From a virus: 57,094 bases of DNA. The stretch lies in the IMG/VR virus record IMGVR_UViG_3300037502_003174, positions 1 through 57,094 of that record; one strand, 5' to 3'. Below, in pieces: positions 7,782 to 40,214 of the stretch; the stretch's first letter is position 1, and every line of letters begins with the position of its first letter. Made by a program: the position numbers and the translations under genes. The notes beneath the pieces were generated by a model that saw only the letters and a program-made list of their open reading frames with translations, was not told the DNA's origin and did no database searches.

Positions 7782-9770
7782 TCAGAGCGCTGACACCGCT
7801 TCCAGCGGCCCGAGGGCGCCGATCTCGCTCGACCCACGGCGGATCACCCGGCCCGTCGCGTTGCCGGTGACCGGGCGCCCCGTGCCGCGCTCCCCGTTGC
7901 GGACCGCCGCTTTCCCCTGCGCCCGAGCGATCTCGTGGCCGTCCGCCTCGATCACGGTTTCTCCGACGTTCACCTCGATCGCGCTTTCGCCGAGGTCCAC
8001 CTTGACGTTCGCCCGCTCCCGGGCCTTCGCGGCGTTCATACTGGCCGAAGAGTTACGGACGGTGTCCTCGACCTGCTTGCTGAGGTCCCGGCGGAGCGTC
8101 GCGAGGGTCCCCGCCCCGAAGTCGGTCCCGCCGAAGATCGCGCGCGCCCCGGGGATGGCGTCGACCATCGCGCCAAACGAGCGGATCAGCAACTCCATCG
8201 CGCCGAGCACGAGGCCGATCGCGCCGGAGACGAACGAGGCGACGATGCCGCCCACGCCGCCGAGGAGGAAGGTCGCGAAGCCGCCCTCGGTGCCGGCCAG
8301 CATCTCCCCGATGCCCCGGCCGATCATGAAGATCGACGCAAGAAACGGTTCTACGATGCTGATCGCGATGTCGACCATGGCGAGGAACTGCGTCCCGAGG
8401 GCGCCGAGCAGGACGATCCCGCCCCCGACGACGGCGCCGATGACCTGCCCCAGCGCGACGGCGGCAAGGCTCAGGCCCTCCATCGACCGGGCGTCGAACG
8501 CCTCGCCCCATGCCAGCCGCACCGACTCGATCGCGGGCATGATCCAGCCGCTGAGGACGTTGTACAGGTCCCACCCGCCGAGCGCGGCGAACGCGAGACC
8601 GGCGCCCAGCGCCTGGACGCCGCCAACGCCCATCGCGCCGATCGCAGTGAAGATCGGCCCGAGGCCGGACAGGGCGAGCGCGACGAGGCCCGCGGCCGCG
8701 CCGACGGGGACAAGGACGGCGGCGAGCGCCCCGAAGCCGATCACGAGCTTCGCCACCTGCGTCTGTCCGCCCGCGCCCAGCGAGTCCCACCACGCGCCGA
8801 GCCGGGTCATCATCGGGCCGACGGTGGAGGCCGAGAGGCGATCGAAGGCGCCCGCCATCTCGTCGACCGCCCGGACGACGATCGGGGAGATCGAGGACAC
8901 GCGCCCCGCCAGGCCGTCGAGGGCGGCGCCGAGCCGGTCGTTGAGACGCGCGCCGATGGTCGTCAGGGTCATGTCGAGCTGGTCTCTGAACGTCGAAAGC
9001 CGGCCGGTGAACGTCGTCGACAGCGCTTGCACCAGGTCGCGCCCGCCGGTGAGGCGCTGGATCCGGCTCTGGATCTCCGCCTCGACCGCGTCCATGTAGG
9101 CCTTGGAGCCCGCCGCGCCGGCGCTGGTGAACTGCTCCATCTTCATCGCGAACCCGGTGAACTCGGTCATACGCGCCATCCCGCCGCCGCTGAGGGCGTC
9201 GTTGAGGGCGAGCGCCGCGTCGCCGACCGTGCGCGAGGGGTCGATCGCCGCCATCGTCTCGGCGATCTTCAGGAGGCGCATGTTCGCCTCCACGTTGTCG
9301 CCGGTGATCGCCAGCATTCGCTGGCTCGCCTGGATCAAGTCCGCCTCGCCGAACGGCGTGCGCGCTGCCTCCTGGCGGATGTCGTTGATCATTCGGCGAG
9401 CGGTCGCAGCGTCGCCGAGGAACGTCTCGAACCCGACCATGTTCTGTTCGAGGGTCGCGGCGAGCTCGGACGATCGGGCGCCGGCGAACCCGAACGCCAA
9501 CCCCAGCGGAGCGAGGGCGGCGGTGATCATGCCCAGGCCGGAAGCGACCCCGCTGACGTGCGTCTGAAGGCCTGCGAACACGCTGGACGCTCCAGCCGCC
9601 TCCCGGCCGAGCCCGCCCATCCGCTGGGAGCCGACCTTGATCCGCCCGTCGAGGCCGCCGAGCTGCCCGGCGAGGCCCTCCACCGCCTTCCCGGCCCGGT
9701 TGATCTCGGCGATGCCCTTGTCGGCGGAAAACAGGAACTCCGCCCCGATGCCCCATTCCTCGCCCGCCAT
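7782..9770 (-). CDS. Tail tape measure protein
   Basis: The 662-residue protein has the tape-measure pattern. The N-terminal helical part contains a segment with ATLEQNMVGFETFLGDAATA and EAARTPFGEADLIQASQRML, typical of these proteins. It is followed by long hydrophobic Gly/Ala-rich stretches (about residues 345-420 and 435-560). It sets tail length and probably inserts into the host membrane during DNA delivery. By length it predicts a tail of roughly 100 nm (rule of thumb about 0.15 nm per residue). The ATG at 9770 has a GGAGGCG site. The tail chaperone genes that normally adjoin it are displaced upstream by the plus-strand cassette at 9860..12784. Confidence 0.9.
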   Translation of the reverse strand: MAGEEWGIGAEFLFSADKGIAEINRAGKAVEGLAGQLGGLDGRIKVGSQRMGGLGREAAGASSVFAGLQTHVSGVASGLGMITAALAPLGLAFGFAGARSSELAATLEQNMVGFETFLGDAATARRMINDIRQEAARTPFGEADLIQASQRMLAITGDNVEANMRLLKIAETMAAIDPSRTVGDAALALNDALSGGGMARMTEFTGFAMKMEQFTSAGAAGSKAYMDAVEAEIQSRIQRLTGGRDLVQALSTTFTGRLSTFRDQLDMTLTTIGARLNDRLGAALDGLAGRVSSISPIVVRAVDEMAGAFDRLSASTVGPMMTRLGAWWDSLGAGGQTQVAKLVIGFGALAAVLVPVGAAAGLVALALSGLGPIFTAIGAMGVGGVQALGAGLAFAALGGWDLYNVLSGWIMPAIESVRLAWGEAFDARSMEGLSLAAVALGQVIGAVVGGGIVLLGALGTQFLAMVDIAISIVEPFLASIFMIGRGIGEMLAGTEGGFATFLLGGVGGIVASFVSGAIGLVLGAMELLIRSFGAMVDAIPGARAIFGGTDFGAGTLATLRRDLSKQVEDTVRNSSASMNAAKARERANVKVDLGESAIEVNVGETVIEADGHEIARAQGKAAVRNGERGTGRPVTGNATGRVIRRGSSEIGALGPLEAVSAL

Positions 9771-9792
9771 CGCGCCTCCATGCGGCCCGCTA

Positions 9793-9805
9793 TCTCGCGG
9801 CGAGA
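9793..9805. promoter_or_regulatory. Perfect 6-bp inverted repeat next to the cassette promoter
   Basis: TCTCGC-G-GCGAGA ends 1 base before the -35 of the plus-strand promoter at 9807. It could be a second operator for the divergent pair (tape measure versus plus-strand cassette) or chance; only the palindrome itself is seen. Confidence 0.35.
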
Positions 9806-9806
9806 C

Positions 9807-9835
9807 TTGCGCGGGAATCGCGCACCGGGTAGGCT
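9807..9835 (+). promoter_or_regulatory. Promoter with 17-bp dyad operator (family member 1)
   Basis: TTGCGC (9807-9812), a 17-bp spacer and TAGGCT (9830-9835) form a sigma70-like promoter. The dyad TGCGCGGGAATCGCGCA (9808-9824) covers the -35 and spacer. Seven other sites in the window share this dyad. Transcription should start near 9842 and drive the plus-strand cassette beginning at 9860, giving a leader of only about 18 nt. Confidence 0.75.
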
Positions 9836-9859
9836 CCAGACGAGCGGCGGGAGGACCGA

Positions 9860-10930
9860 TTGCTCTGCGAGACGTGCGGCCTGAGTGCCGCGATCATCAC
9901 CTGGGCCGACCGACGGCACCGGGCGCCAACCACCTACCGCCTGTGCCGCGACTGCGCGGCGCGGGCTGAGGAGACAACCATGGGACAGCAGACCGATGAA
10001 ACGAGGGCGCTGCGGGCCGCGATCCTGCGCGCCTTGGAGGCGGAGCCGGACGGGCTCCACCGCGCGGGGATCTGCCGCGCCATCCAGGCGGAGCCGGGTG
10101 AGCACCGGCTCGTGAACGGTGTGATCTCGGGGCTCATCCGGGCGGGGCTTTGCCTCGCTGTCGGCGGCATGGTTCGGATCACGCCGGCCGGCCGGAAGTC
10201 GCTCGCCCCGGTCGCGCCCGTTGCCGCGCCGTTGCCGCCCGCCCCGGCGCCGAGCAACGCGGCGGTCACGGTAAGGGTTGACGCGTCGCGCGAGTACGCC
10301 CTTGAAGCCCTCACGCTGATCGAGATGGCGATCCCGGGTCCGAACCCGCCTCCGACCACGGTTGATGCGATCGTCGACCGGGCCGTGACCGCGCTGCACA
10401 GCATCCACAACCTGCGGCGGATCGAGCGGTTGTACAACGACGACCGCGCCGCGAAGGAGCGGGCGGAGGCCGAAGCGGCCGACCTCAAGGGCCGCCTCGA
10501 CGTCTCGACGATGGAGGTTGCGCGCCTCACCGCCGAGCGCGTGCTTGACGACCAGCGGGCGAAGATGGTCCCGCCGGCATGGGAGACGGAAGCGTTGCGG
10601 GGCAACCTTGACGACGCCAAGGCCGAGATCGCCCGCCTCCGCGCCCAGCTTGCCGAGGCGCAGCGCTCCCGCATCTCCTGGGACATCGGCGAGACGCGGC
10701 GCCTCGTGCGCCAGCGGATCACCCACGAGACGCTGGCCGAAGTCACCATCGACGGTGACGACGTCGTTTGGCGCGCCACCGACGATCACGCCCACGGCGT
10801 GATCGCCATCCCAAAGCCCGGGGAGGACGACGCGGCCGTCGAGCAGGCGCTCGTCATGGGCCAGATGCTTGCTGAGGTGGCGTGTGGGGCGCGGGTGGTT
10901 CTGGCGGCGAAGGACGGGGGTGCGCTGTGA
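9860..10930 (+). CDS. Unknown protein: N-terminal zinc ribbon, winged-helix-like region, coiled coil
   Basis: First gene of the plus-strand cassette; 356 residues from TTG 9860, which has GGGAGGA 4 nt upstream and lies 18 nt after the predicted transcript start. Residues 3-32 carry two CxxC knuckles (C3/C6, C29/C32). Residues ~41-110 resemble a winged-helix (ILRALEAEPDGLHRAGICRAI...LIRAGLCLAVGGMVRITPAG), and ~175-275 is a charged coiled coil. A second in-frame ATG at 9980 also has a good GAGGAG site and would give a form lacking the zinc ribbon. A DNA-binding role is plausible but the family is not recognised. It overlaps the next gene as GTGA. Confidence 0.7.
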   Translation: MLCETCGLSAAIITWADRRHRAPTTYRLCRDCAARAEETTMGQQTDETRALRAAILRALEAEPDGLHRAGICRAIQAEPGEHRLVNGVISGLIRAGLCLAVGGMVRITPAGRKSLAPVAPVAAPLPPAPAPSNAAVTVRVDASREYALEALTLIEMAIPGPNPPPTTVDAIVDRAVTALHSIHNLRRIERLYNDDRAAKERAEAEAADLKGRLDVSTMEVARLTAERVLDDQRAKMVPPAWETEALRGNLDDAKAEIARLRAQLAEAQRSRISWDIGETRRLVRQRITHETLAEVTIDGDDVVWRATDDHAHGVIAIPKPGEDDAAVEQALVMGQMLAEVACGARVVLAAKDGGAL

Positions 10931-11265
10931 GCGCGCGGAAGCTCCGCCCGGGGATGGTCATCCGGGAGAAGCCGATCCGGCGCGGTGATCTGCCCCGGCA
11001 TTCGCTGATCACCTCGGTCGGCGCCGGCGGGGTGGCGGTGATGCGGCCCGCCGTGGAGCATTCGATCTGGCGCCCGATCTGGCCGCTCCTGCGGGCGCTG
11101 CGGGCCGGAACGGCCGAGATCGTCACGGTGCCGTGCGGTCCCTGCGGGGCGCCGCTCACGGACTACGACGCGGCGCGGATGCTCCTGCGGTGCCGGAAGT
11201 GTGGCACGCCGCACTCGGCGACGATGTGGAGCATCCTGGCGCTGATCCGGCGGGGCGAGTCGTGA
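10927..11265 (+). CDS. Small zinc-ribbon protein, unknown function
   Basis: GTG 10927 overlaps the stop of the preceding gene. The 112-residue product has KLRPGMVIREKPIRRGDLPRHSLITSV at its N terminus (a small beta domain) and a C-terminal zinc ribbon, CGPCG near residues 73-77 and CRKCG near 92-96. No enzyme signature is visible. Second member of the coupled plus-strand cassette. Confidence 0.6.
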   Translation: MSARKLRPGMVIREKPIRRGDLPRHSLITSVGAGGVAVMRPAVEHSIWRPIWPLLRALRAGTAEIVTVPCGPCGAPLTDYDAARMLLRCRKCGTPHSATMWSILALIRRGES

Positions 11266-11504
11266 ACCCCGCCGAGCGGTGGCTCGCGGCCCGCCAAGCC
11301 GCGGCCGAGGCGCGGGAGCGCGCCCGGGAGGCGCCCGAGCACGGCCCGCAACTGACGCTGGAGGGCGCGAGCCTGGAGGCTGAGGCGGCCCGCCTGGCGG
11401 CGCAGGAGAAGGCCGCGCAAGCGGCGGTGGACAGGGATCCGGCCGGGCGGTGGTCGCTCGGCGGGGGATGGTCGGTGGTGAGGATGGAGGTGCGGCATGG
11501 GTGA
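11262..11504 (+). CDS. Small helical protein, unknown
   Basis: GTG 11262 overlaps the previous stop (GTGA). The 80 residues are Ala/Glu/Arg-rich and predicted almost wholly helical (AERWLAARQAAAEARERAREAPEH), ending in a short Gly/Trp strand segment. Coupled position in the cassette is the main support that it is translated. Confidence 0.5.
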   Translation: MNPAERWLAARQAAAEARERAREAPEHGPQLTLEGASLEAEAARLAAQEKAAQAAVDRDPAGRWSLGGGWSVVRMEVRHG

Positions 11505-12156
11505 GACGGGTTGCTATCGGTGCACCGGGCAAGAGCGGTTCGAGGGCGCGATCTGTGACGGCTGCGGGTCTGTTGCCGACGGGCGCGGCGGGTTCGCGCG
11601 GCCGGAGCCGGTGCTGTCGGTCGGCGAACCGATGTGGCTCCTGTGGACGGGAGACGAGTACGACCAGCGGGATTCCAAGGACGATGCTGTCATCCGGTTC
11701 GATGCCATCGTTCAAGAGATGGAGAGCGACGCGTGGTCGGATGGCGAGTGGCCGGAGGACGCCGAGAGCGCGCCGGTGCTGTGGGTCGCGTACCCACTCC
11801 AGCGCCACACGCTGGTCCCCGACGTCGACGAGGACGGCGCCGATGTGTCGCGGTCGGAGGTGGTCGAGTACGCCGACCCGGTCGCCACCCTCACCGCCGA
11901 GCGCGACCAGGCCCGCGCCGAGCGCGACGCAGCCCAGGACACCGCCGCCCAGGCGATCGCCGACTTCGATCGGGTCGTCCGGGAGCGGGACGAGGCGCGT
12001 ACAGTGGCCCGCAACGCGATCCGAGAAGTCATTCACCTCGCGGCCAGGGTTGCTCAGGGCCACTATGGGGAGGACGACAATGGTAGCCACGGGAGACTCG
12101 CCATCGCGCTGCGCGACATCGCGAACAAGCTGCGAACGGCCGGGGTGGCGGAATGA
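11497..12156 (+). CDS. Zinc-ribbon plus coiled-coil protein, unknown
   Basis: ATG 11497 overlaps the previous gene by 8 nt. The 219-residue product starts with a zinc ribbon (C6YRC9 and C20DGC23). It continues with an acidic WLLWTGDEYD... domain, and then a coiled coil at about residues 125-170 (ERDQARAERDAAQDTAAQA). Several zinc-ribbon proteins in this one cassette suggest nucleic-acid or protein-interaction roles against the host, but none is recognisable. Confidence 0.6.
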   Translation: MGETGCYRCTGQERFEGAICDGCGSVADGRGGFARPEPVLSVGEPMWLLWTGDEYDQRDSKDDAVIRFDAIVQEMESDAWSDGEWPEDAESAPVLWVAYPLQRHTLVPDVDEDGADVSRSEVVEYADPVATLTAERDQARAERDAAQDTAAQAIADFDRVVRERDEARTVARNAIREVIHLAARVAQGHYGEDDNGSHGRLAIALRDIANKLRTAGVAE

Positions 12157-12374
12157 CGCCGCGTGGATGGGCCGTTGCCCTGCTGCTTGCCGTTGTCACG
12201 GGTTGCGGGCTTCCCGTGCCTACAGTGCGGGTGTGCCGCGAGGAAATCCTACGCCCCGAGCGCGCCTCAGGCTTGGAGGCGATGTGCGGGTCGCTGGACG
12301 CACGGATCGAGAAGCTGGACGGGCGCTTTGTGTGCCGCTGCCCGCCTCCGACCGTCGAGCGAGGCGAACCGTGA
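12153..12374 (+). CDS. Small Cys-rich lipoprotein (candidate outer-membrane spanin or exclusion protein)
   Basis: The 73-residue protein has a positively charged start, a hydrophobic stretch (AVALLLAVVTG) and a lipobox VVTGC with lipidation Cys at residue 18. Mature part is short with four further Cys residues (VCRE, MCGS, VCRC). Small phage lipoproteins are often outer-membrane spanins or superinfection-exclusion factors. It is not in the lysis cluster, so the second idea is at least as likely. ATG 12153 overlaps the preceding stop by 4 nt. Confidence 0.6.
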   Translation: MTPRGWAVALLLAVVTGCGLPVPTVRVCREEILRPERASGLEAMCGSLDARIEKLDGRFVCRCPPPTVERGEP

Positions 12375-12784
12375 CCCGGGAACTTCAACGCGCGATCAAG
12401 GCGGCCACTCAGGACCTGGAACGCGTCTCGCCTGCGGGTCGCGCGCTCGGTGGGCGGGTCGCGGCGATGGCGGAAGCCGGAGAGCGGATCATCGTGGCGG
12501 CCCTGGGTGATCGGCCCATGCCTCGCGAGATCCGGATCCGAAGCAGCATGTGCCCGACCTGCGCGTGCCGCCCGGGGACGGTGCCGAACGGCTGCGCTCA
12601 GACGCAGATGGACCTGCTGAAAGCGGCATCGGAGGGCGGATCGTTCGCCTGTCACTCGCCGCTGGACGGCACGCTCTGCCGAGGGTGGGCCGCCGTTCGG
12701 GCCTTCGTCGTCCGCCACCCGCTGCCCCGGCGGATGCGGCGGGCACTCCAGCGCCACACCTACAGCCCGCCGGACGAGACCTGA
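12371..12784 (+). CDS. Conserved-type Cys-motif phage protein, unknown
   Basis: GTG 12371 overlaps the lipoprotein stop (GTGA). The 137-residue product has a helical N-terminal half. It then has a cysteine-rich motif, CPTCACRPGTVPNGC near residues 59-73, followed by FACHSPLDGTLCRGW. A C-P-x-C-x-x-R-x-G-T-x-x-N ... C-H ... C-x-G-W pattern recurs in hypothetical proteins of many actinobacterial and other phages and probably binds zinc. Last gene of the plus-strand cassette; it ends 3 bp from the convergent tail chaperone gene, with no visible terminator between. Confidence 0.6.
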   Translation: MTRELQRAIKAATQDLERVSPAGRALGGRVAAMAEAGERIIVAALGDRPMPREIRIRSSMCPTCACRPGTVPNGCAQTQMDLLKAASEGGSFACHSPLDGTLCRGWAAVRAFVVRHPLPRRMRRALQRHTYSPPDET

Positions 12785-12787
12785 AGC

Positions 12788-12985
12788 TCACCGCCGGCTC
12801 ATTGCCCGCGCCCGCTCCTCGGAGATCGTGGCCAACTCGTCAAACAGGCCGCGGACTTCCTCGATCGTCAGCGCGTTGAATCCGGCGGGCCCGCCCAGCC
12901 CGCCGCAGGCCTCCGCCGCCCGGGCGAACCAGCGGATCCAGTCGGCGCCGCTGATCCCGGCCTCCCGGACGGCATCAGAAAACAC
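12788..12985 (-). CDS. Second tail assembly chaperone ORF (possibly a frameshift extension)
   Basis: The 65 residues from GTG 12985 overlap the end of the preceding chaperone gene in a different frame (equivalent to +1 or -2). This is the position where double-stranded DNA phages put the second tail assembly chaperone, often made as a frameshift fusion. It has IEEVRGLFDELATI near its C terminus and is small and helical. There is no ribosome site at the GTG. An ATG at 13024 in the same frame would add Cys/Pro-rich residues. Re-initiation and programmed frameshifting at the GGTGTTTTC just before the upstream stop are both possible. Confidence 0.5.
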   Translation of the reverse strand: MFSDAVREAGISGADWIRWFARAAEACGGLGGPAGFNALTIEEVRGLFDELATISEERARAMSRR

Positions 12986-13769
12986 CGGACAAGGCCCGCA
13001 ACGGGATGGACACGGTATGCCCACAGGCAGGGCACGTCGTCTCCGCCGCGCCCTGCACGGTCAGGGTGATCGCCTGGAGCGCCCGATCGATGGCCGCCGC
13101 GTCGCGGTCGTCGAGGTCCTCAACCGCCGCCGTCGGGAGGCGCCCGATCCGCGGGTCGTCGGTCCCGGTGACGCCCGACTCAATCGCGTCGGCAAGGAGC
13201 TGCGCGACGTTAACCGCGCCCGGTCGATGGTGGGCGTACAGGCCGCCGTGCGAGGGCGGAGACAGGGTCAGGACCCGCACGACGGCCGGGCCCAGGGTGA
13301 CGGGCTCCCGGAGGGCGTAGAGCGCCCCTGGCGGCTCGCCAGCGCCGCCCCAGCAGGCGACTTCCGCCGCGCCCAGGTCGTATGTCTGCGTCGACGAGCG
13401 CTTGCACGCGGGGCAGGTGTGCGCCCACTGGACGCCGTCGGGGTGGAGGTGGGCGAGGAGCGAGATCGTCAGCGTCTCGACGTCGCCCGAGGGCAGGCCG
13501 AGCAGCTCCCCGGCGAGGCGCCCGCGGTCGGCGTCGGCGACGGGCATCCCGCGCCAGGTCGAGAGCGCCGCGGCGATCCGCTGGACGAGGCCGCGGGCGT
13601 CGCCGGCCTTCGCCTCGCCGATGGCCTTGTGGAGCCCGAGGTTCCGCCGGCGCCAGCCGAAGGGGATCCGCGTCGTGGGAGTCATGCCGAGGTCGCGGAT
13701 GCGGATCGCGGTTGTCGGCGTTTCGGAAAGCCGGGCCTCGCCCGGGGTGATGTTGTCGTGCATTCCCAA
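12975..13769 (-). CDS. Tail assembly chaperone / T4 gp26-gp51-like baseplate assembly protein
   Basis: The 264-residue protein has an N-terminal strand region (TTAIRIRDLGMTPTTRIPFGWRRRNLG). It continues with a helical body and two zinc knuckles: CPAC near residues 118-121 and CPACG near 249-253. Myophage proteins annotated as T4-type baseplate or tail assembly chaperone share this Cys-bearing architecture and sit between tube and tape measure genes, as here. ATG 13769 follows a TGGAGGTTGGGA ribosome site. It should keep the tape measure soluble during assembly rather than be in the virion. Confidence 0.6.
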   Translation of the reverse strand: MGMHDNITPGEARLSETPTTAIRIRDLGMTPTTRIPFGWRRRNLGLHKAIGEAKAGDARGLVQRIAAALSTWRGMPVADADRGRLAGELLGLPSGDVETLTISLLAHLHPDGVQWAHTCPACKRSSTQTYDLGAAEVACWGGAGEPPGALYALREPVTLGPAVVRVLTLSPPSHGGLYAHHRPGAVNVAQLLADAIESGVTGTDDPRIGRLPTAAVEDLDDRDAAAIDRALQAITLTVQGAAETTCPACGHTVSIPLRALSGVF

Positions 13770-13908: not shown

Positions 13909-14352
13909 TCAGAGCGTCTTGATCACGCTGTCGATGGAGCAGGAGTAGACGATCTCGGTCGCCTCGGTGGACGTCTTGTCGAGGTCGCCCAACGACCACT
14001 TGGTCGGGAACATCCCGGCGAGCGCGTAGATCGCGACCGGGACGTCGTCAGCGCCCATGACCTCGACGGTGGCGGCGCGCTTGTAGCCGGGCGATCCCGC
14101 CTGCGACTGCACCCACCAGGCATCCCAGGCCGCGGCTTCGACGCTGTGGTGGACGTAGCCGGAGACGTCGGCGGTGCTCGCCTTGGTGTGCCCGGCCGAC
14201 TGCATGGTGCGATCGGCAAGCTCCACCGTCTCAAGCTCGCTCTCGAGCCCGGCGAACTTGGAGGCGTAGAACGGCGGGAGCCCCGCAACGGTCACGCGGA
14301 ACTTGGAGCGCGGCGCGGCGCCCGGCAGCACTTCGCCCTTGATGTTGCTCAT
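13909..14352 (-). CDS. Tail tube protein, gp19-like
   Basis: At 147 residues this matches the size of contractile tail tube proteins (T4 gp19 family). The pattern PRSKFRVTVAGLPPFYASKFAGLESELETVEL at the N terminus and the beta-rich remainder fit the family, whose rings stack to form the inner tube. ATG 14352 overlaps the sheath stop by 4 nt; sheath-then-tube order is standard. It is followed by the hairpin at 13858. Confidence 0.85.
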   Translation of the reverse strand: MSNIKGEVLPGAAPRSKFRVTVAGLPPFYASKFAGLESELETVELADRTMQSAGHTKASTADVSGYVHHSVEAAAWDAWWVQSQAGSPGYKRAATVEVMGADDVPVAIYALAGMFPTKWSLGDLDKTSTEATEIVYSCSIDSVIKTL

Positions 14353-17081
14353 GCGACCTCGCTATCGGCGGACACGCCGCCCGGGTTGACGGTGAAGACG
14401 ACGCGCTCCGAGGTGCCCCGGATGGTGAAGGCGATTTCGATGTGGAGCTCGCCCGCGGCGCGGGTGGCGGCGGTGTTGTTGGACGAGTCGACCTTGATCG
14501 ACACCTGGTCCTCAAACCCGGAGCCGCGAGCGTCGTCGAACCAGCCCGCCCGGTACCACGGGAGGAACAGGTCGCGGACGACGCGGCGCGCCTCGGCGAA
14601 CAGGGAGACGGAAAGCGGCTGGAACACCAGGCTCTCCGTCTCGGTCAGCAGCACCCGGCCGATGTGGGACAGCGCGATCCGCTTGTGGGCGAACGGAAGC
14701 GTCCCGTTGTACCCGGCGATCCGGTCGCCCCAGCTCTCGATCTGCGGGCCGCGCTTGCGCAGCGCGATCAGGCCGTAGGAGTTGAGGGCTTCGAGGTCCA
14801 GCGACCGATCCCCGGTCGGGAGGTCGAGGGCGATCGGGTTGAGGCCGAGCCGCGCGAAGGCGATCGCGTGGCTGTTGGCGTCGGACACCTGGCGGGCGCG
14901 GGCGCCGAGGAGCAGGCCCGTCGCGGTGCACGTGTAGGTGCCGGGCCGCGCCACGTTGACCGCGAACGGGTCGCGGATCTTGACGTAGGACGGGAAGAAC
15001 GTCACGCTGTAGTCTTGGTCCGCCCCGACCGCGAGGTTCGTCGCGTGTTCGGCGAGCGCCCCGGCCTCGGTGGTGGTGGCGTCGTCGATCTCGCAGACCG
15101 CGAGGGCGTTCTTGGCGGCGGCCCAGGCGATCAGCGCCTGTTGCACGGAGGCGGTGGTCACGCCGGGGACGGCGGCCACGATGGCGCCCGTGGAGAGGCT
15201 GTCGAGGGACGACAGGATCGCGCTCGGCCCGATGGCAAGGGCGGCCTCGTAGTCGGCGGCGGCCAGGGAGGCGTAGCCGTCGACGCCGCCGGAGAGCTCC
15301 TGCGCCCACTGGAGGCGGAGGATCTGGCCGTCGGTGCCGGCGTAGCTGTTGCCGTTCGTGAACCCGAGCTTGCTGTTCAGCCCGCCGTTCCCGACGACGA
15401 TCGTGGCGGCCGATCCGTAGTCCTGCAGCGCGGTCACCTTGATCTTGTTGTCGCTGGTCGCCTCAAACACCACCGTCTTGTCGGCGGCGACGCTCGACAC
15501 GCGGGACAGCTCCTGCGCGTTCAGGTCGGCCGCGAGCGCGGCGGCGGTCGTGGTCGCGCCCGAAAGCGACGAGGTGAGGGTGATGTTCCCCCGCCCGCCG
15601 ACGTTCAGGATCACGGTCTTGGTGCCGCTGCTGAGGTCGTAGGTGCCGGCGACCGACCCGGTGAAGGTCGGCGGCTGCGCGACGTCGATATCGCTGCCGG
15701 GGCTCGACTCTAGGGTCACCGCCTTGTGGGTGTTGCCGGTGATCCGCCACTTGAGCCGCTGGTTGCCCTGGCTCGGGGCGGCGGCGGCGTACAGGTAGCC
15801 CCGGCGCCCGGCGAGGCCGCTCGGGAGCGCCTGCACGGTGAAGACGATCACGGTGTCGGTGTCCGCGCCCGTCCCGCCGGCCCGGACGGTGAACCCGGGG
15901 AGGAAGGCGTTCGGAGCGGCATACGCGCTGCCCACGGTGCCACTCGGGAGGTTCCGGGCGGTGCCGCCATCGGCGTAGGTGGCGCTCACGTCGAACGCGG
16001 TGGAGCTCGTGAACGTGAGGGTCACGGTGCAGGGCTTCGGATCGGTGCCCCAGGTGACATCGTTGATGATGTCGATGTACGGGTTCCCCGTGCCGGATCG
16101 CGTCCAGCCGACGGTGAGCAGCTCGATCGTGCTGCTGACGGTCGTCCCCGGCTTCACGATCCCGGCCCAGTTGGCCGGGCGGTTCAGGGCGGCGTTCGGG
16201 TCGCCGCTGAAGGCCGCGTCGTCGACCTGGACCTCGTAGTTGATGGCGTCCTGGCTGAGCTGCGTCTTCCAGTAGGCGCCGTCTTCGTCGTCGAGGTGGA
16301 GGCCGTCGTAGCTGCGGACGGTGGCGCCGTCGCGCAACACCCCGAGCCCGAAGCGCTCAGCATCGGCGGCCGCGTCGTAGATCTCGACGGCGAGCCCTTC
16401 GCGGTTGCCCGTCAGGTCGCTCACGTTGTCGAGCCACAGGACGTAGCGCCCATCGGTCCCCGAGGAGAGGCCGCTCGGGAACCCGCCCGCGACGGTCAGG
16501 ACGCCGGCGGTGGTGTTGCTCTCGACGGTGCCGACCCAGGTGGCGTTGTCGTAGGGGAACGAGATCGAAGCGCCCTTCCAGGCGTCCTTGACCATGGTGT
16601 GGGCGAGGTCGATCGTGGACCCGCTGATCGCGCTGGAGAGCGTCACGTCACCGGTCGTCCGGTTGCGGCGCCCGCCGCGGCGCCCGCCGTTGTCGGCGGA
16701 GACGGTCGCGATCACGGGGGCCGGGGTGACGGCGGAGATCTCGACCACCGACGTCGCGGCGGCGCGGGAGCGGACCGGGAGGGAGGCGGAGACCTGATCG
16801 CCGTCGGCGACGCGGGCGCACCACAGCTCCCCGGCGCCCTGGCTCATCGAGAACCAGTGCTGCGCGGCAAGCGGCGCCTGCGACTCGCGGGTGATCCCGC
16901 CGAAGATGCGGCTGAACTCGGCGAGCGAGGCGCAGCGGACAACCTCGTCGAGCGGGCCGGAGCGGAACGCCCCGACGAGAACGGACGTCCCCAGGGTCCC
17001 GGGGCGGCGCGGCTGATCGGCCGGCATCTCCCGGACCTGGGATCCGGGGGCGCGGATAGCGCCGAACACACGGATACTCAT
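14349..17081 (-). CDS. Contractile tail sheath protein
   Basis: The N terminus (SIRVFGAIRAPGSQVREMPADQPRRPGTLGTSVLVGAFRSGP) and the C-terminal third are typical of the phage tail sheath family. In the C-terminal third, residues ~640-900 include GLNPIALDLPTGDRSLDL, LALSHIGRVLLTETES-type segments and an EIAFTIRGTSERVVF tail. It polymerises around the tube and contracts at injection. ATG 17081 with GGAGGAA site is the start. At 910 residues it is much longer than T4 gp18 (659), with about 300 extra beta-rich residues inserted in the middle (about residues 150-580), likely surface domains. Confidence 0.9.
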   Translation of the reverse strand: MSIRVFGAIRAPGSQVREMPADQPRRPGTLGTSVLVGAFRSGPLDEVVRCASLAEFSRIFGGITRESQAPLAAQHWFSMSQGAGELWCARVADGDQVSASLPVRSRAAATSVVEISAVTPAPVIATVSADNGGRRGGRRNRTTGDVTLSSAISGSTIDLAHTMVKDAWKGASISFPYDNATWVGTVESNTTAGVLTVAGGFPSGLSSGTDGRYVLWLDNVSDLTGNREGLAVEIYDAAADAERFGLGVLRDGATVRSYDGLHLDDEDGAYWKTQLSQDAINYEVQVDDAAFSGDPNAALNRPANWAGIVKPGTTVSSTIELLTVGWTRSGTGNPYIDIINDVTWGTDPKPCTVTLTFTSSTAFDVSATYADGGTARNLPSGTVGSAYAAPNAFLPGFTVRAGGTGADTDTVIVFTVQALPSGLAGRRGYLYAAAAPSQGNQRLKWRITGNTHKAVTLESSPGSDIDVAQPPTFTGSVAGTYDLSSGTKTVILNVGGRGNITLTSSLSGATTTAAALAADLNAQELSRVSSVAADKTVVFEATSDNKIKVTALQDYGSAATIVVGNGGLNSKLGFTNGNSYAGTDGQILRLQWAQELSGGVDGYASLAAADYEAALAIGPSAILSSLDSLSTGAIVAAVPGVTTASVQQALIAWAAAKNALAVCEIDDATTTEAGALAEHATNLAVGADQDYSVTFFPSYVKIRDPFAVNVARPGTYTCTATGLLLGARARQVSDANSHAIAFARLGLNPIALDLPTGDRSLDLEALNSYGLIALRKRGPQIESWGDRIAGYNGTLPFAHKRIALSHIGRVLLTETESLVFQPLSVSLFAEARRVVRDLFLPWYRAGWFDDARGSGFEDQVSIKVDSSNNTAATRAAGELHIEIAFTIRGTSERVVFTVNPGGVSADSEVA

Positions 17082-22090: not shown

Positions 22091-23410
22091 TCAGGCGCCG
22101 AACGAGGTCGTCGAGACGATGATGCCGTCCTGGATGCTCGCGGCCTCCGGCCGGTACACGAGCGGGCACATCTCGACGTAGAAGTCCAGGCGGAACCTGT
22201 CCGCTTCCTGTTCAAACTTGTTGAACATGCGGAAGCGGCTGGAGTCGATCACGTTCACGAGGTTCCGGGGATTCGTGAGGAGGATCGACGCGCAGTCCGC
22301 GATGTCGAGGGTGTAGTCGCTGGCCGTGGTGCTGATGCTGCCCTGGCCGAGCGCGCCCACGGTCGACACGAAGTTGTTGGTCCCGTCCCAGGTGACCGTC
22401 CGGGTCTCGCTGAGGCCGGTGGAGTTGCGGGTCACCTTGATCTTCCGGCCCGCGTTGCCCGCCGCGGCGCCGCCGAGAAGGGTGTCGACGCGGAGCTTGA
22501 TGATCGTGCCGCTCGGGTTGGTGACGGCGTCCGCGTTGGTCGTCGAGCCGTTCAGGGTCGCAAAACCCTGGGTGCGGCTCATCTGGGGCACCTGCACCGG
22601 CTGGATGCCGAGGATCTGGGCTTGCTGGCGGCTGAGCAGCGCGTCGTTCGCCACCTGCGAGGCCGAAGCCCAGGCGGACGCGAAGGCGTACTGAGCGTTC
22701 GCCGCAAGCATCGGCGAGATCATCCAGCGGAGGTTGGGATCGTTCTGGTAGCGCTCGGGCAGGTTGTCGTACGCCGACTGGAACGCGGCGATCGAGTAGG
22801 CGGAGCCGCGGGTCGTCGAGAGGACGTTCCCGGCGTCGCGGATCTGCTTGAGCCAGCCGTCCTTGGTGCCCAGGAAGCGATTCTCGCGGGTCGACGCGCC
22901 GGACGCGAGGTCGGTGTCGCCGTTGATCGCAAGCTGCGCGATGTTGCTGCCGAGCCTGATCGCGATCAGCTTGCGCAGCTTGCCGATGAAGTCGCCCTCA
23001 CCGCTGGCCGCCGCTTCGCGCACGTCCTCGGGGGTGTAGAACACGGTCCCGTGGAACTTCGCGGTCGTGTACTCGATCTTCGCCGTGGTCGCGACGTTTG
23101 ACGCGGTCTGCGTCTCGCCCTCGGTCGCCGGCTCCATGAGCCAGTCGCCCATGGTCATGTCGGTGAACTCGCCGGAGCGCTGGTCGACGAACTTCATCGA
23201 CGTGGCGCCGAGCCAACCGCTGTCGTCGGCCGCGTCCACGATCAGCCCGTGGACCGCCTTGCGGTTCATGAACTGGCCGCCGGCGCTGAGCGTAGAGGTG
23301 GTGTTCACGTCGTCGGACTTGCCGACCGGGAGGGACTCGGCGCCGGGGAGGCCGATCGCCTTGTTGACGGCGTTCAGGGACGCCAGAAGCTGGGCAGTGG
23401 AGCGGCTCAC
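22091..23410 (-). CDS. Major capsid protein (HK97 fold)
   Basis: The 439-residue protein directly follows protease and scaffold genes. It shows the HK97-type order: an N-terminal arm, the E-loop region around AADDSGWLGATSMKFVDQRSGE, a spine-helix part (REAAASGEGDFIGKLRKLIAIRLGSNIAQLAING) and a P-domain/A-domain with NLRWMISPMLAANAQYAFASAW. A beta-rich insert at about residues 275-375 (ATLNGSTTNADAVTNPSGT...) may be an added surface domain. ATG 23410 overlaps the scaffold stop by 4 nt. A small 5-bp GC hairpin (22064-22077) follows the stop. Confidence 0.85.
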   Translation of the reverse strand: MSRSTAQLLASLNAVNKAIGLPGAESLPVGKSDDVNTTSTLSAGGQFMNRKAVHGLIVDAADDSGWLGATSMKFVDQRSGEFTDMTMGDWLMEPATEGETQTASNVATTAKIEYTTAKFHGTVFYTPEDVREAAASGEGDFIGKLRKLIAIRLGSNIAQLAINGDTDLASGASTRENRFLGTKDGWLKQIRDAGNVLSTTRGSAYSIAAFQSAYDNLPERYQNDPNLRWMISPMLAANAQYAFASAWASASQVANDALLSRQQAQILGIQPVQVPQMSRTQGFATLNGSTTNADAVTNPSGTIIKLRVDTLLGGAAAGNAGRKIKVTRNSTGLSETRTVTWDGTNNFVSTVGALGQGSISTTASDYTLDIADCASILLTNPRNLVNVIDSSRFRMFNKFEQEADRFRLDFYVEMCPLVYRPEAASIQDGIIVSTTSFGA

Positions 23411-23976
23411 TTGGCACCTCCGAGGATCGCCGAACGGAGCGCGGCGTCGACGTCATCCGCCTTGGAGGCGGTGTCGCGGTTGGTTTCGATGCGGCCGGCG
23501 TTGCCGGCGGGGACGGCGCGCTCCATGGCGGAGACGCGGCCGGCGATGCCCTCGATGGACTTCCCGACGTTGGTCAGGACGTCGATCAGGCCGGGCTGGC
23601 GGAGCTCGGCGCCGTCCGCGGACTTGGCGACGACGCCCTTGTCGTCGGTGACGGGGGCGCCGGCGAGGACGGATTCGAGCTCGGCGATGCGCTCCGCCTG
23701 CTTGGCGACGGTGGCCATGATCGGCGCCATCGCGCGGTCGATCATCGCCTGGAGGCTGGCAGCCTGGAGGCCCGCGCCAGCGTCGGCGATCTCGCCCTCC
23801 AGCTGCCCGGTGGGACGCGCCGGCTGGTCGGGGGTGATCGACGCCTTGGCGGCGACTTCCGCGGCCTTGGCCACGACGTTCTGAAGTTGGGCGTCCGTCG
23901 CGCCGGGGTTGGCGGCCTTGTAGGCCGTCACCGCCGCGGTGACGACCGCGTTGATTCGGTTCTGGTCGAGCGCCAT
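23407..23976 (-). CDS. Nested short scaffold from an internal start
   Basis: Within the scaffold gene, the in-frame ATG at 23976 is preceded by AGGAGGA (23984-23990) with a 7-nt gap, the strongest ribosome site in this area. It would give a 189-residue protein starting MALDQNRINAVV, the C-terminal half of the scaffold. In lambda, scaffold Nu3 is made in the same way inside protease gene C. This is an inference from the site; a single long product is the alternative. Confidence 0.5.
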   Translation of the reverse strand: MALDQNRINAVVTAAVTAYKAANPGATDAQLQNVVAKAAEVAAKASITPDQPARPTGQLEGEIADAGAGLQAASLQAMIDRAMAPIMATVAKQAERIAELESVLAGAPVTDDKGVVAKSADGAELRQPGLIDVLTNVGKSIEGIAGRVSAMERAVPAGNAGRIETNRDTASKADDVDAALRSAILGGAK

Positions 23977-24651
23977 GTGCTCGTCCTCCTGGTTGTCAGC
24001 CGCTTTCGCGGCGGTGGTGGAACTGTCGGCGGCGTCGAGCACCGCTTGGAGCGCCGCGATCGCCGAAGTGACGGCGGCTTTGTTCTTGGTGCTGAGGACC
24101 TTCCCGGCCTTCGCGACGAAGACGGCGGCGCAGTCGTCGGCCTCGCGGTGCGCCTTGGCGACCATCTCCAGGCCGAGCGGGTTGGCGGCTGGGAGTTGGC
24201 TCACAAGGTAGGTCGCGGCGTCGGAAAACCGCTTGCGGATCTCGGCCGGCTTGTCGGTGAGCATCGGGTCTTCCATGACCGACTCGACCGACTCACGGAG
24301 CGCCGAGGTGACGTTCCACCAGCGATCCCAGAACACCTGAGGCGCCAGCGCCTCGGCGAAGGACTTCGCCGGCTCGTCCTCGCTCTTGGCGGTGGTGTCC
24401 GTCACCGTGCCGCCGGTGAAGAACGCGAGGAACCGGCGCATCATGCCGACTTCGGCCGGGGTGACGCCCATCGCGCCGCCGTTCAGCTCGGGACCCTCGT
24501 TGGCGCCGAGGTCGGCCTTCGCCACGCCGAACTGGCGCCCGTTGGCGCCCCGGGGAACGAGGGAGACGACCGAAACGTCGGGATCGCCCATGATGGTGAC
24601 GACGGGCTTGCCGTCGGGGCCCTTGAGGGCCGCGAACTTCTCTGGCTTCAT
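23407..24651 (-). CDS. Capsid scaffold protein with N-terminal XkdF-type segment
   Basis: The 414-residue protein starts at ATG 24651 with GGAGAA upstream, coupled to the protease gene. Residues ~20-45 (VSVVSLVPRGANGRQFGVAK) are the motif normally found near the middle of XkdF-like protease/scaffold proteins. The rest is Ala/Glu/Lys-rich helix and coiled coil, as expected for a scaffold (for example ATVAKQAERIAELESVLAG near residues 320-340). It should guide procapsid assembly and be degraded by the protease encoded just before it. An internal start (see 23407..23976) may give a shorter scaffold. Confidence 0.7.
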   Translation of the reverse strand: MKPEKFAALKGPDGKPVVTIMGDPDVSVVSLVPRGANGRQFGVAKADLGANEGPELNGGAMGVTPAEVGMMRRFLAFFTGGTVTDTTAKSEDEPAKSFAEALAPQVFWDRWWNVTSALRESVESVMEDPMLTDKPAEIRKRFSDAATYLVSQLPAANPLGLEMVAKAHREADDCAAVFVAKAGKVLSTKNKAAVTSAIAALQAVLDAADSSTTAAKAADNQEDEHMALDQNRINAVVTAAVTAYKAANPGATDAQLQNVVAKAAEVAAKASITPDQPARPTGQLEGEIADAGAGLQAASLQAMIDRAMAPIMATVAKQAERIAELESVLAGAPVTDDKGVVAKSADGAELRQPGLIDVLTNVGKSIEGIAGRVSAMERAVPAGNAGRIETNRDTASKADDVDAALRSAILGGAK

Positions 24652-25112
24652 GCGTTCTCCGCAGGGTACACCGGTACAACCGGCGTCTTGGTGACGCTGC
24701 CCCAGAAGCTGACGGCGTTGTACGTCCCGTCCTCGATCGCGGTCCACTCAGCGGACCCGGGATCGACCTGGAGGACGACGACCCAGGCTCCGGGCCAGTA
24801 GTTGGGGCTCGCGACCTCGGGGCCGTTCACGAAGGACTCGACGACGCGGACCGTGGTCACCGGCTGGAGGTCGTGGCGCTGGTCGATCTTGCGGTAGTCG
24901 GCGAGGTAGCGCCGGGCCATCCGGGCGACGTCCTCCGCGAGCATCGCCTCCCCGTGCGAGTCAATCGGAGTCAGGGCGCGATCGGCGAGGTCGGGCGCGG
25001 TCGCGGCGGCAAGCTCAGCGCTTCCGAGCTTGGCTTCTAGCGCCGAGAACTGCGCGAACGCCTCGGGGTCAAACGGGAGGTAGACCTCCACCCAGATGAG
25101 GCCCTCGCTCAT
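24648..25112 (-). CDS. Prohead maturation protease, XkdF-like
   Basis: Residues 1-12 (SEGLIWVEVYLPF) are the usual opening of XkdF-like phage serine proteases. Further on are KIDQRHDLQP (H80), VVESFVNG (S93), PGAWVVVLQVDP and YNAVSFWGS (S135), the blocks of that family's catalytic domain. The protein cleaves scaffold and capsid arms. Here it is only 154 residues and lacks the C-terminal scaffold, which is encoded by the next gene with a 4-nt overlap. ATG 25112 has no clear ribosome site; a start further up in the same frame (up to 25217) cannot be excluded. Confidence 0.75.
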   Translation of the reverse strand: MSEGLIWVEVYLPFDPEAFAQFSALEAKLGSAELAAATAPDLADRALTPIDSHGEAMLAEDVARMARRYLADYRKIDQRHDLQPVTTVRVVESFVNGPEVASPNYWPGAWVVVLQVDPGSAEWTAIEDGTYNAVSFWGSVTKTPVVPVYPAENA

Positions 25113-25221
25113 CGATCGTTCGGACTTGCGGACCCGAGCGAAGACCGGCAACGGCGACCCTCCATGCGCCGCGTTGACCCGTCGCGGACACGGCGTCAAG
25201 CGGCGTTCAACCGGCATCGGA

Positions 25222-25238
25222 CGCGCGATATCCGCGCA
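25222..25238 (-). promoter_or_regulatory. Operator-like dyad without clear -10
   Basis: On the minus strand TGCGCGGATATCGCGCG matches the 17-bp dyad of the phage promoter family with one arm base changed. It lies about 110 nt before the protease start. The -35 would be GTGCGC and the -10 position (TGCCGG) is poor, so it may be an operator or a weak, activator-dependent promoter for the capsid genes. Confidence 0.4.
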
Positions 25239-25245
25239 CCGGCGC

Positions 25246-25890
25246 CTAGCGGGCGTCGGGGGCGTACAGTCGGCCGACTTCCAGCGCGCGGACCATGAGC
25301 AGATCCGCGAGGTCGGCGGCGGCCGGCGGGGCGTAGCCTGCGACGTCCAGCGCCTCCAGGACGGCCGATCTCGACACCGCCGCTACCCGGGCCGCGACCT
25401 CTCGGCGCGCGGCGGTGACGGCCTCTCCAACGGCGCGCGGGCGGGTGACCGCTCGCCAGTCCTCCGGCCCCACCGGGGAGCGGCCGAGGGCGGAGCCGGG
25501 GGTCAGCCGGAGGGCGCCGAGGCCCAGGGCGGGCGCGTCGGGGCGGGCGCGGAGGCCCTCGTCGGGCCAGGTCGCGGAGAGCCAGTCGTCGGCGGGGCGG
25601 CCAGCGGCAACGCCAGCGACGGCCCACGGGCGCGCGGCCCACGGCGTCCAGGCGACCCACAGGCGGCCCGCTGCGACGTAGCGGCCCCCGACGAGGGCGA
25701 GGCGGGAGGCGGGCGCGGGGAGCCCGACGAGAGCGGCGAGGTTGCGCGTCGCGGCGATCTGGCGGGCGCGGTCATCCACCTCGGGGGAGAGGAGCCACGT
25801 CCGGCCGTCCGGGGAGCGCCACACCGGGCCGTCGGGCGTCTCCAGGGTCGTCGGGGCGAGGGTCGCGCCGAACTCCTCAGGGCTGATCAT
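25246..25890 (-). CDS. Unknown protein between methyltransferase and capsid protease
   Basis: The 214-residue product starts at ATG 25890 (GAGGAGGCCC site), overlapping the methyltransferase end by 14 nt. The N-terminal half is beta-rich with Trp (PDGPVWRSPDGRTWLLSPEV, RLWVAWTPWAARPW). The C-terminal half is helical (AVGEAVTAARREVAARVAAVSRSAVLEALDVAG). No motif is recognised. The codon pattern is as biased as in neighbouring genes, so it is a real gene. Confidence 0.6.
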   Translation of the reverse strand: MISPEEFGATLAPTTLETPDGPVWRSPDGRTWLLSPEVDDRARQIAATRNLAALVGLPAPASRLALVGGRYVAAGRLWVAWTPWAARPWAVAGVAAGRPADDWLSATWPDEGLRARPDAPALGLGALRLTPGSALGRSPVGPEDWRAVTRPRAVGEAVTAARREVAARVAAVSRSAVLEALDVAGYAPPAAADLADLLMVRALEVGRLYAPDAR

Positions 25891-30654: not shown

Positions 30655-32445
30655 TCAGGCGGCGGCCCGGTCCTCGCGGTCGGCGTCGGCCCAGGAGTCG
30701 CCCACGGCGGCGGGGCGCGTCCCGATCTGGCGGCGGCGCTCGGCGTCCCGGGAGCGGACCCACCGGCGGAGGGCGGCGACGGCCATCCAGAGCGCCATCA
30801 CACAGTCGTCGTGCGCCTCGCGACCGAGGCCGTGGAGCTCGGCGATCACCCGGTCGACGCGCTTCTCCTCGGCGGGCGTCGACCAGGCGAACGACAGGAG
30901 CCCGCCCTCGAACAGCGCGGACATGCTCGGCACGCCCTCGTACAGCGACGACTTGCGCTTGGTAGTGGTGTGCCCGCGCAGCGGGATCCCCAGGCGCGCC
31001 AACGGCTCGCGGAGGTCAACCTCGAACGCCCGTTGCGCCGCGTTGTTTTCAACGATGACGTACCCGGGGCGGATGGCCTCCGCTTCGTCGATGATCCGCG
31101 CCCGGATCGCGCTCGGGGTCAGCCCTCGGCCGCGCCAGATCCGCCGCACCTCGATCCGGTCGTCCAGGGTCAGCCCGACCGTGACGCCGACCGTGTAGTC
31201 GGAGTCGGCGCGCTCGGCGGCGGCCGAGGTGTCCACGATCGCGAGGTCCCAGGCGGTGATCGTGACCTGGTACTCCGCCTCCCCGGCCTCGGCGGCGAGG
31301 TCGAGGGCGTCCCAGGACGAGAGAGCGAGGTCGAGGGTGATCGAGCGGAGCGCCTCGTAGGCGAACCCGCGCCCCCGGCCGCGAGCCTTGGCGCCCTGCA
31401 ACCACCCCCACTGAAACATCGCCGTCGCGTCGTCGATCGGCTGGTTCAAGTATTCGCGTTGGAACGCCAGCGACCCAATCTTGCGCCGGCGGGCCGCGAG
31501 CGCGTCGGCGCTCCAGTAGTCCGGCATCAGGATGTGGTCGCCGTCGATGCTCGGGACGTTGGCGCCGTCGACCATCCGCCACCGGGCGGCGTAGCGCCGC
31601 GACCACCACTCCGGGGACTTCTCGCGGTCGATCAGGTTCGCGAGGAGCGAATCTTGGTGGAGCACCGTCCCAATCATGCAGGTCAGGAGGTGGCCTTCGA
31701 TGCCGAGGGGGATCAAGACTTCGTTGAGCCACCGGTGCAGTTCGGCCCGCGCGTCCTTGGACCGGACGTCGAGGTCGTTTTCGAGGTCGTCCACGAGGAT
31801 GAGCGTCGGGCGGCGGTTGCGGCGGTTGACGCCTCGGATCTGGCCCCCGGCGCCCAGGGCGCGGACGAGAACGCCGTCCGACGTCTCGAACAGCTTCGTG
31901 CCCCACGGCTTCTGACTCTTGCCCTTGGAGCGGCCCGCCGCGGGGACGAGGCTCCCGTAGTCGCGGCGCAGGTCGTCGTTCGACTCCAGCTCGGCGCGGA
32001 GGTCGGAGACGATCGCCTCGGCGAGGCTCGCGGTGTCCGAGACGACCACGATGAACGGCGGGCGCCCCCGAAAGTGGGGCATCTCGCGCCATTCGTGGAT
32101 CACCCGGAGAAGAAACGCCTTCATAAGCGTCGTTTTGCCGTGGCCTCGGGGGCAGGCGAGCGCGTAGGAGTCCTGGACCCGCCCCGCGATCGGCCGCTGC
32201 ATGACCATGGCGTCGAGGTCGGCGGCGATCTCCGCCTGGAACGGGGCCGGAGCGGCGCTGAAGGCCTCCGGCATGTAGCGGTACGCCCAGCGGAGGAGCC
32301 TTGCCTTCGCCGCCCGGCGGTCGGCCTCGTCTTCGGCGAGTAGCGCCTCCATCCGCGCGCGCCGCTCCGCGGCCGTGACATCGGCCCGGATGCGGTTGGG
32401 GAGCTGGCGGGCGGCCGAGCTGGGACGGGCGACGGCGGCGGTCAT
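30655..32445 (-). CDS. Terminase large subunit (packaging ATPase and nuclease)
   Basis: The 596-residue protein has a Walker A CPRGHGKT (98-105) and a Walker B PTLILVDDL (213-221). A RNase H-type nuclease domain follows, with AWD (398-400), IVENNAAQ (464-471) and HDD (545-547) supplying the acidic metal ligands. It pumps DNA into the procapsid through the portal and cuts the concatemer. ATG 32445 overlaps the stop of the TerS-like gene by 4 nt. Confidence 0.92.
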   Translation of the reverse strand: MTAAVARPSSAARQLPNRIRADVTAAERRARMEALLAEDEADRRAAKARLLRWAYRYMPEAFSAAPAPFQAEIAADLDAMVMQRPIAGRVQDSYALACPRGHGKTTLMKAFLLRVIHEWREMPHFRGRPPFIVVVSDTASLAEAIVSDLRAELESNDDLRRDYGSLVPAAGRSKGKSQKPWGTKLFETSDGVLVRALGAGGQIRGVNRRNRRPTLILVDDLENDLDVRSKDARAELHRWLNEVLIPLGIEGHLLTCMIGTVLHQDSLLANLIDREKSPEWWSRRYAARWRMVDGANVPSIDGDHILMPDYWSADALAARRRKIGSLAFQREYLNQPIDDATAMFQWGWLQGAKARGRGRGFAYEALRSITLDLALSSWDALDLAAEAGEAEYQVTITAWDLAIVDTSAAAERADSDYTVGVTVGLTLDDRIEVRRIWRGRGLTPSAIRARIIDEAEAIRPGYVIVENNAAQRAFEVDLREPLARLGIPLRGHTTTKRKSSLYEGVPSMSALFEGGLLSFAWSTPAEEKRVDRVIAELHGLGREAHDDCVMALWMAVAALRRWVRSRDAERRRQIGTRPAAVGDSWADADREDRAAA

Positions 32446-33796: not shown

Positions 33797-33982
33797 TCAG
33801 CCGAACGGCAGCGACGGCGGGGTCGGAGCCTCGGCCCGGCGCTCGATCAGCTCGTCGAGGGCGGCCAGGACGCCCAGGTTGTCTTCGTAGTCCGGATCGC
33901 TCCACCGATCGGGGCGGGTCAGGGCCTCGGCGCGCTCGCGGAGATCGCGGAGGCGGTCCAGGGTGAGGCGGTCAGCGGCCAT
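33797..33982 (-). CDS. Small helical protein at the end of the early block
   Basis: The 61 residues from ATG 33982 (LTLDRLRDLRERAEALTRPDRW...NLGVLAALDELIERRAE) form two amphipathic helices and a Pro-rich end. It overlaps the previous gene by 11 nt and ends just at the stop of the convergent membrane gene. Function unknown. Confidence 0.5.
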   Translation of the reverse strand: MAADRLTLDRLRDLRERAEALTRPDRWSDPDYEDNLGVLAALDELIERRAEAPTPPSLPFG

Positions 33983-34733
33983 CGGACACCCCGGGCGGCG
34001 TGAGGTGGGCGTCGGCGGGGGAGCGGTAGCCGGAGGGCTCGGCGGCGTTGATCGTCGCGGCCTCCAGGGTGACCGTGGTCGGCCGCAGGTCGGCCGGCGT
34101 GATCTCGGGAATGACGCAGCGCATCAGCGGATGGGTGCTCCGGGAGGTGGGGTTCTTCGGGGCTGAGTGGATCCCGGTGCCCCCGCCGAGCGCGGGGGCC
34201 TCCGGGGTCAGGCAAGCCGTGTGGCGCATCCCGTCGGACTCCGCCCGGACGCCCGGGCCGACGTCAAACTCCGGCTCAGCGGGCGCGGGGCGGACCGGTC
34301 CGCCACCAGACCGGCCGATCTCGACGAGGCGTTCGTACTCGGGGGTCAAGCGGTAGATCGTCACGCCCCGCCTGGCGTCCCGGTCGCGAATGACGCCGGG
34401 CCCGACCTCGATCCTCCGCCTGCCGTCCGACACGTAGGTCAGCGCGCGGTGCTCGGCGGCCAGCTCGCGCACGCCGCGGGCCAGGTCCCGCCAGTCCGCG
34501 GCATCCAGTCCCAGAGCGGCGGCGACCTCGGTCAGCTCGTTTCGGAGCGACGTGGCCTCGGCCACGAGCTGCTCCGTCTCCGGCGTCAGCCGGAACACCG
34601 CGATCCCCTCCGAGGTGTCGCACTCGACGCCCGGATCGAGCTTCACGCTCTCCAGCGCCGCGAGCTTGGCCCGCTCCGGGGCGTAGTCGTAGTCGTAGTT
34701 CTCGCGGGGATCGCCCGCGCAGTCTCCGTTCAT
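33972..34733 (-). CDS. Unknown early protein, paralogue of the gene at 34849..35085
   Basis: ATG 34733 has an AGGAGGAAGG site. The 253-residue protein starts NGDCAGDPRE, as does its shorter neighbour (NQDCAGDPRE), and both contain an AALGLDAADWRDLARGVR/AALGLDSVDWRDLPRHVR segment. The longer protein also has two similar internal blocks, IAVFRLTPETEQLVAE (~50-65) and VTIYRLTPEYERLVEI (~125-140). No function can be assigned. Confidence 0.55.
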   Translation of the reverse strand: MNGDCAGDPRENYDYDYAPERAKLAALESVKLDPGVECDTSEGIAVFRLTPETEQLVAEATSLRNELTEVAAALGLDAADWRDLARGVRELAAEHRALTYVSDGRRRIEVGPGVIRDRDARRGVTIYRLTPEYERLVEIGRSGGGPVRPAPAEPEFDVGPGVRAESDGMRHTACLTPEAPALGGGTGIHSAPKNPTSRSTHPLMRCVIPEITPADLRPTTVTLEAATINAAEPSGYRSPADAHLTPPGVSDGR

Positions 34734-34826
34734 CCTTCCTCCTTCGTCTCGGCCTTCTCGGCCTTGTTCCACCGGTTGTCTTTCCATTGCGCCCCACACC
34801 ACGGGCAGAACGCGATCTGAAGAAAC
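34701..34826. repeat. Duplicated ~126-bp segment, copy 1
   Basis: Bases 34701..34826 match 35053..35178 at a constant 352-bp offset, with roughly one mismatch in ten. The unit covers the start of the DCAGDPRE gene and the end of the CPWC zinc-ribbon gene before it. Synonymous-looking differences suggest an old tandem duplication. Confidence 0.8.
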
Positions 34827-40140: not shown

Positions 40141-40153
40141 TCGATGCTCCGGG

Positions 40154-40175: not shown

Positions 40176-40183
40176 CTGCACGG

Positions 40184-40212: not shown

Positions 40213-40214
40213 CG

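Follow-up and report, generated by a model that had tools for sequence, protein, structure and literature searches.

A plus-strand cassette of six overlapping ORFs (9860-12784) separates the minus-strand tape measure gene of a phage from its minus-strand chaperone genes. It is probably a multi-gene moron of about 3.0 kb that lies in reverse in the tail cluster, uses the phage's own non-structural promoter-operator and is probably silenced late by antisense transcription. The window, the whole 57,094-nt stretch of DNA analysed (IMG/VR record IMGVR_UViG_3300037502_003174), has a 126-nt direct repeat at both ends (7-132 and 56969-57094), and it therefore appears to be a complete, terminally redundant myovirus genome of about 57 kb, with a G+C content of 72%. 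The virion genes follow each other on the minus strand in the order terminase (30655-32445), portal, head, sheath (14349-17081), tube, gp26-like gene, tape measure and baseplate. The non-structural genes, among them those for a DnaB helicase and SbcCD, occupy 33-53 kb and are on the minus strand too.

The ORF1 side of the cassette is flanked by the tape measure gene (7782-9770, minus strand; phrog_23574, E 7e-12). The ORF6 side is flanked by a small chaperone-like ORF of 65 residues (12788-12985, minus strand), whose orthologue in the relative G001 abuts the tape measure gene, and then by the T4 gp26-like or tail chaperone gene (12975-13763, minus strand; 262 residues), which gives weak matches to PF12322 and phrog_150 (E about 0.006). 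The chaperone label of these two genes is based on their position and on a frameshift-like junction. The gp26-like gene ends (12975-12990, minus strand) in GTTTTCTGA, with the 65-residue ORF in another frame, and the end of its counterpart in G001 (25241-25330) reads CCTTTTTGAAGTAG. A programmed frameshift that joins the two chaperone ORFs is possible from these sequences.

Relatives of the phage were retrieved only with alignments of the TerL, sheath and baseplate proteins. Scans with the single sheath, ORF1, TerL and capsid proteins retrieved none, nor did searches of the phage collection at the DNA level or by tblastn with the sheath, ORF1, capsid, ORF6, ORF2 and ORF4 proteins. The terminase alignment led to a clade at 43-48% identity. 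Its best-matching member, G001 (IMGVR_UViG_3300016471_000834; 87.8 kb), is about 44% identical in the sheath and terminase and is collinear with the window through the tail genes; its small chaperone ORF (25117-25287) and tape measure gene (23042-25117) overlap as TGATG. The baseplate alignment gave 29 loci, and 19 distinct ones (G001 counted in, the duplicates L219 and L233 left out) extend without a break from the gp26-like gene to the gene that follows the tape measure gene. In all 19, a small ORF and one tape measure ORF (691-1335 residues) are the only ORFs between these two genes, so that the cassette is present in none of the relatives with the same tail order. Since no relative has an extra gene at this junction, the 3,017 nt between the flanking genes of the window (9771-12787) are, as judged from gene order, an insertion specific to this phage among the relatives examined. 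The sequence-only reading had held that the tape measure gene normally neighbours the chaperone genes and that the cassette splits the tail operon; both statements are borne out by the 19 loci, and the comparison by which that reading could have failed showed no relative that shares the order of the window. Inserts are found at other places in the relatives. G001 has an accessory insert of about 13.7 kb (39643-53337) between its head-morphogenesis and portal genes, which is missing from the window and includes ORFs resembling an adenine methylase and a PAPS-reductase-like protein. In two other loci, L220 (4800-9980) and L223 (1754-9580), 4-7 kb of inserted DNA separates the gp5-like from the wedge genes, but these inserts were rejected as a parallel to the counter-oriented cassette, since their genes lie on the same strand.

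Each ORF of the cassette has its own distinguishing motifs. ORF1 (9860-10930, 356 residues) has a TTG start behind GGAGG and an alternative ATG at 9980. Its N terminus carries a zinc-ribbon-like CxxC-x22-CxxC arrangement (CETC/CRDC), which is inside the protein only if the TTG is used, and a coiled coil is also present. The TTG at 9860 is inferred to be the better choice of start, because its distance of 53 nt from the promoter fits the 44-113 nt seen at seven of the other operator sites better than the 173 nt to the ATG. ORF2 (10927-11265, 112 residues) has a zinc-ribbon-like CGPC-x15-CRKC, and ORF3 (11262-11504, 80 residues) is rich in Ala and Glu. ORF4 (11497-12156, 219 residues) combines an N-terminal zinc-ribbon-like CYRC-x10-CDGC with a coiled-coil-like remainder. 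ORF5 (12153-12374, 73 residues) encodes a putative lipoprotein with the lipobox VTGC behind a hydrophobic N terminus, and ORF6 (12371-12784, 137 residues) has the motif CPTCAC...FACH...CRGW. The zinc-ribbon, lipoprotein and Cys-motif content named in the first description of the cassette is thus found again, and so is the chain of GTGA and ATGA overlaps: four of the five junctions are 4-nt overlaps (GTGA, GTGA, ATGA and GTGA in order), while ORF3 and ORF4 overlap by 8 nt. The codon model rates the plus-strand frames as coding, at 0.04 to 0.22 per codon, except ORF5, which is the weakest of the six at -0.04. The model of the early genes is favoured in all six ORFs, as it is in 68% of early and 21% of late genes, although the shift in codon usage towards the early genes is small. 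The Cys content of the cassette proteins is 2.7%, compared with 1.1% in early and 0.6% in late proteins, and their small size and Cys richness place them nearer to the early set than to the late set.

The predicted promoter-operator of the cassette (9807-9835, plus strand) consists of a -35 element TTGCGC, the palindrome GCGCG-GGAAT-CGCGC and a -10 element TAGGCT, at a spacing of 17 nt. The palindrome is located between the -35 and -10 elements, as expected of an operator. The pattern TNGCGCG-N5-CGCGC has nine copies in the window, whereas 1.28 are expected and none of 100 simulations gave more than 5. With TAG in register it has four against 0.01 expected; three copies besides that of the cassette keep its register, with TANNNT. 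The eight copies outside the cassette, with which its predicted promoter is shared, occur at 33-53 kb and without exception on the minus strand. Nearly all of them are just upstream of non-structural genes, and a same-strand gene starts 44-113 nt downstream in eight of the nine cases. Within the virion region (1-32 kb) the operator is found at the cassette only. A 17-nt stretch is identical at 9809-9825 (plus strand) and 52926-52910 (minus strand). Since the palindromic operator was found in neither of the two relatives that were checked, G001 and G002, the control element is particular to the phage of the window. The sequence-only reading had described an early-type operator promoter and likely early expression of the cassette. 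The shared promoter class stands, and together with codon usage it points indirectly to early expression; because two weaker operator copies precede the gene adjoining the terminase, "non-structural-type" is a safer label than "early-type". Besides the cassette, the only convincing plus-strand genes are located at 53299-53981. They are divergent from the operon that begins at 52884, with a gap of 414 nt in between, and the first of them matches two PHROGs of unknown function. This region is a candidate for the regulator of the operator.

The search for homologues proposed with the first description of the cassette found none in the databases or relatives searched. The six proteins have no homologue in Pfam, PHROGs or NCBIfam, no match to the anti-phage defence models of PADLOC, no paralogue in the window and, at the thresholds applied, no homologue in G001 or elsewhere among the relatives. 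The anti-host functions suggested in the sequence-only reading thus find no support. ORF1, ORF2, ORF4 and ORF6 gave no tblastn match in the phage collection, and ORF1 gave none in plasmid records or in 398 genomes of one phylum, which may not be that of the host. Several candidate similarities were rejected. DUF6283, considered for ORF6 from its Cys/His spacing, was dropped, as PF19800 matches nothing in the window even with E values up to 10 admitted. A stretch of L223 similar to ORF6 does not share the reading frame of the real gene at that place. For ORF1, the impression of a winged helix has no support in Pfam or the PDB. The GrpE match of this protein covers the coiled-coil part and is far below its cut-off. 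The match of ORF4 in G418 (E 1.8e-5) involves only the coiled coil, has a stop within it and lies antisense to a 979-residue ORF. AlphaFold models from single sequences were unusable, with a mean pLDDT of 47 for ORF1 and 46 for ORF6.

The composition of the cassette is native to the genome. Its G+C fraction is 0.719, the same as the genome mean (0.719) and between those of the flanks (0.724 and 0.715), and it ranks 42 of 167 in tetranucleotide composition. There are no repeats at its edges; a simple scan of 9500-13100 gave no plus-strand terminator-like site, and there is no T-run in 12700-13100. Native composition and missing homologues agree with either a long stay in the genome or a source of similar composition.

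In the proposed mechanism, host RNA polymerase would initiate near 9842 and make one polycistronic cassette mRNA together with those of the other operator-bearing operons, and the six products would be translated by coupling. Late silencing is expected because the tape measure gene lies beyond the cassette for late polymerases coming from the sheath, tube and chaperone genes, which would have to cross the cassette in antisense. A further late promoter, within the 89-nt divergent gap or the cassette itself, would remove this need. Late transcription and the operator protein would then shut the cassette off. The products, of which three or four may be small zinc-binding proteins, one a lipoprotein and one helical, would have early targets in the host cell or its envelope; this host-directed role is a guess, made from the promoter class, from the size and Cys content of the proteins and from the lipoprotein among them. 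It is conceivable, though not likely, that the six orphans form an early set for host takeover or counter-defence whose antisense placement is itself regulatory. Early transcription of the cassette would then delay synthesis of the tape measure protein and late transcription would silence the cassette, forming a two-state switch.

Four other explanations have to be weighed against a reversed moron under the phage's own control. In a genome of 72% G+C, plus-strand ORFs could be shadows of minus-strand genes called in error, and long minus-strand ORFs (422, 281, 434 and 242 residues) do overlap the cassette. However, these score -0.04 to -0.51 in the codon model, no gene is found at this junction in any of the 19 relatives, and the plus-strand ORFs are chained by 4-nt overlaps and equipped with ribosome-binding sites and a promoter, all of which makes such an artefact barely credible. 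The location inside the tail cluster might instead be functional, with six late proteins that assist tail assembly or decorate the tail. This is very unlikely for a block that lies opposite to every structural gene, has a promoter of the non-structural set and is missing from 19 relatives with the same tail genes; in addition, neither a lipoprotein nor zinc pairs were found among the late proteins.

To the sequence-only reading the cassette looked like a relocated early or accessory operon. In a true relocation, a rearrangement would have carried an early operon of the same phage lineage, promoter included, to the tail cluster. Even though promoter and composition are both native to the phage, no paralogue is left in the window, no homologue is found in G001 or any other relative at the thresholds used, and the edges have no repeats. 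Since early regions diverge fast, the missing early-region homologues are weak evidence against relocation, which is kept as a doubtful but serious alternative, while the word "relocated" finds no support. A moron expressed from the prophage, for lysogenic conversion or superinfection exclusion with the lipoprotein as effector, would agree with the lipoprotein, with the cassette's own promoter and with the analogy to the P22 immI region (PMC2629481), and exclusion lipoproteins of the Ltp type provide a precedent (PMC3952083). It is nevertheless improbable: no integrase or firm repressor match was found among the proteins scanned in the window, which leaves a temperate lifestyle unsupported, and the operator is common to the replication-side operons, which the repressor of a lysogen would silence.

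Classical morons often have their own terminator and a base composition unlike that of the genome around them. The reversed moron proposed here resembles morons generally in being placed between genes that are adjacent in relatives and in having its own predicted promoter (PMC4378225, PMC6316719), but it differs from them in its six genes instead of one or two, in its opposite orientation, and in showing neither a terminator nor a compositional contrast. As the term is now more widely used, a moron need not have its own terminator (PMC6316719), and a differing base composition is usual but not required (PMC4378225). In architecture the cassette is comparable to the ant moron of P22-like phages (immI: mnt, arc, ant and sieA), which sits between the late-operon genes 16 and 9. 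Both are multi-gene blocks in a late morphogenetic cluster that vary or are missing among phages with otherwise conserved gene order, and late transcription passes through the P22 block as it would through the cassette (PMC2629481). However, the cassette is at a different position and has no detected sequence relation to the P22 block; no homologue of mnt, arc, ant or sieA was found among the six proteins in Pfam, PHROG or NCBIfam. The ant moron also carries its own repressors, whereas the cassette uses an operator common to the rest of the phage. Like the 16.1-17 insertion of SPP1, the cassette adds genes at one point of a conserved virion module, and like the accessory transcription units of SPP1 it encodes small uncharacterised proteins, although the accessory early units of SPP1 sit in the early module and the cassette is set against the tail operon (PMC6316719). 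The repeated operator recalls the repressor sites and stoperators of cluster A mycobacteriophages, in which one short operator is repeated genome-wide at many units. Those sites lack symmetry, are numerous and bind a known immunity repressor (PMC9283540, PMC6550527), whereas the element of the cassette is a palindrome inside a promoter spacer at nine places and a putative operator.

Since moron architecture is already known, the novelty of the cassette is its orphan gene content and its wiring to the phage's own regulon. Insertion at the junction between chaperone and tape measure genes was unexpected, as this junction is invariant in the relatives (19/19). An accessory operon can evidently be added in reverse at a tail junction and yet be wired to the regulon of the phage itself. 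The six orphan proteins are candidates for early, host-directed roles, and the cassette is a natural case in which to test whether early and late units interfere with each other in transcription.

Two further features of the non-structural region may be mentioned. At 33972-35384 a two-gene unit is duplicated in tandem (142 nt, 89% identity; pairs 33972/34849 and 34730/35082), and one of its proteins has a zinc-ribbon-like stretch, FCPWCGAQW. A protein phosphatase 2C-like gene, which is unusual in a phage, is located at 39400-40140 on the minus strand (PF13672, E 4.7e-10), with an operator-promoter directly above it at 40212.
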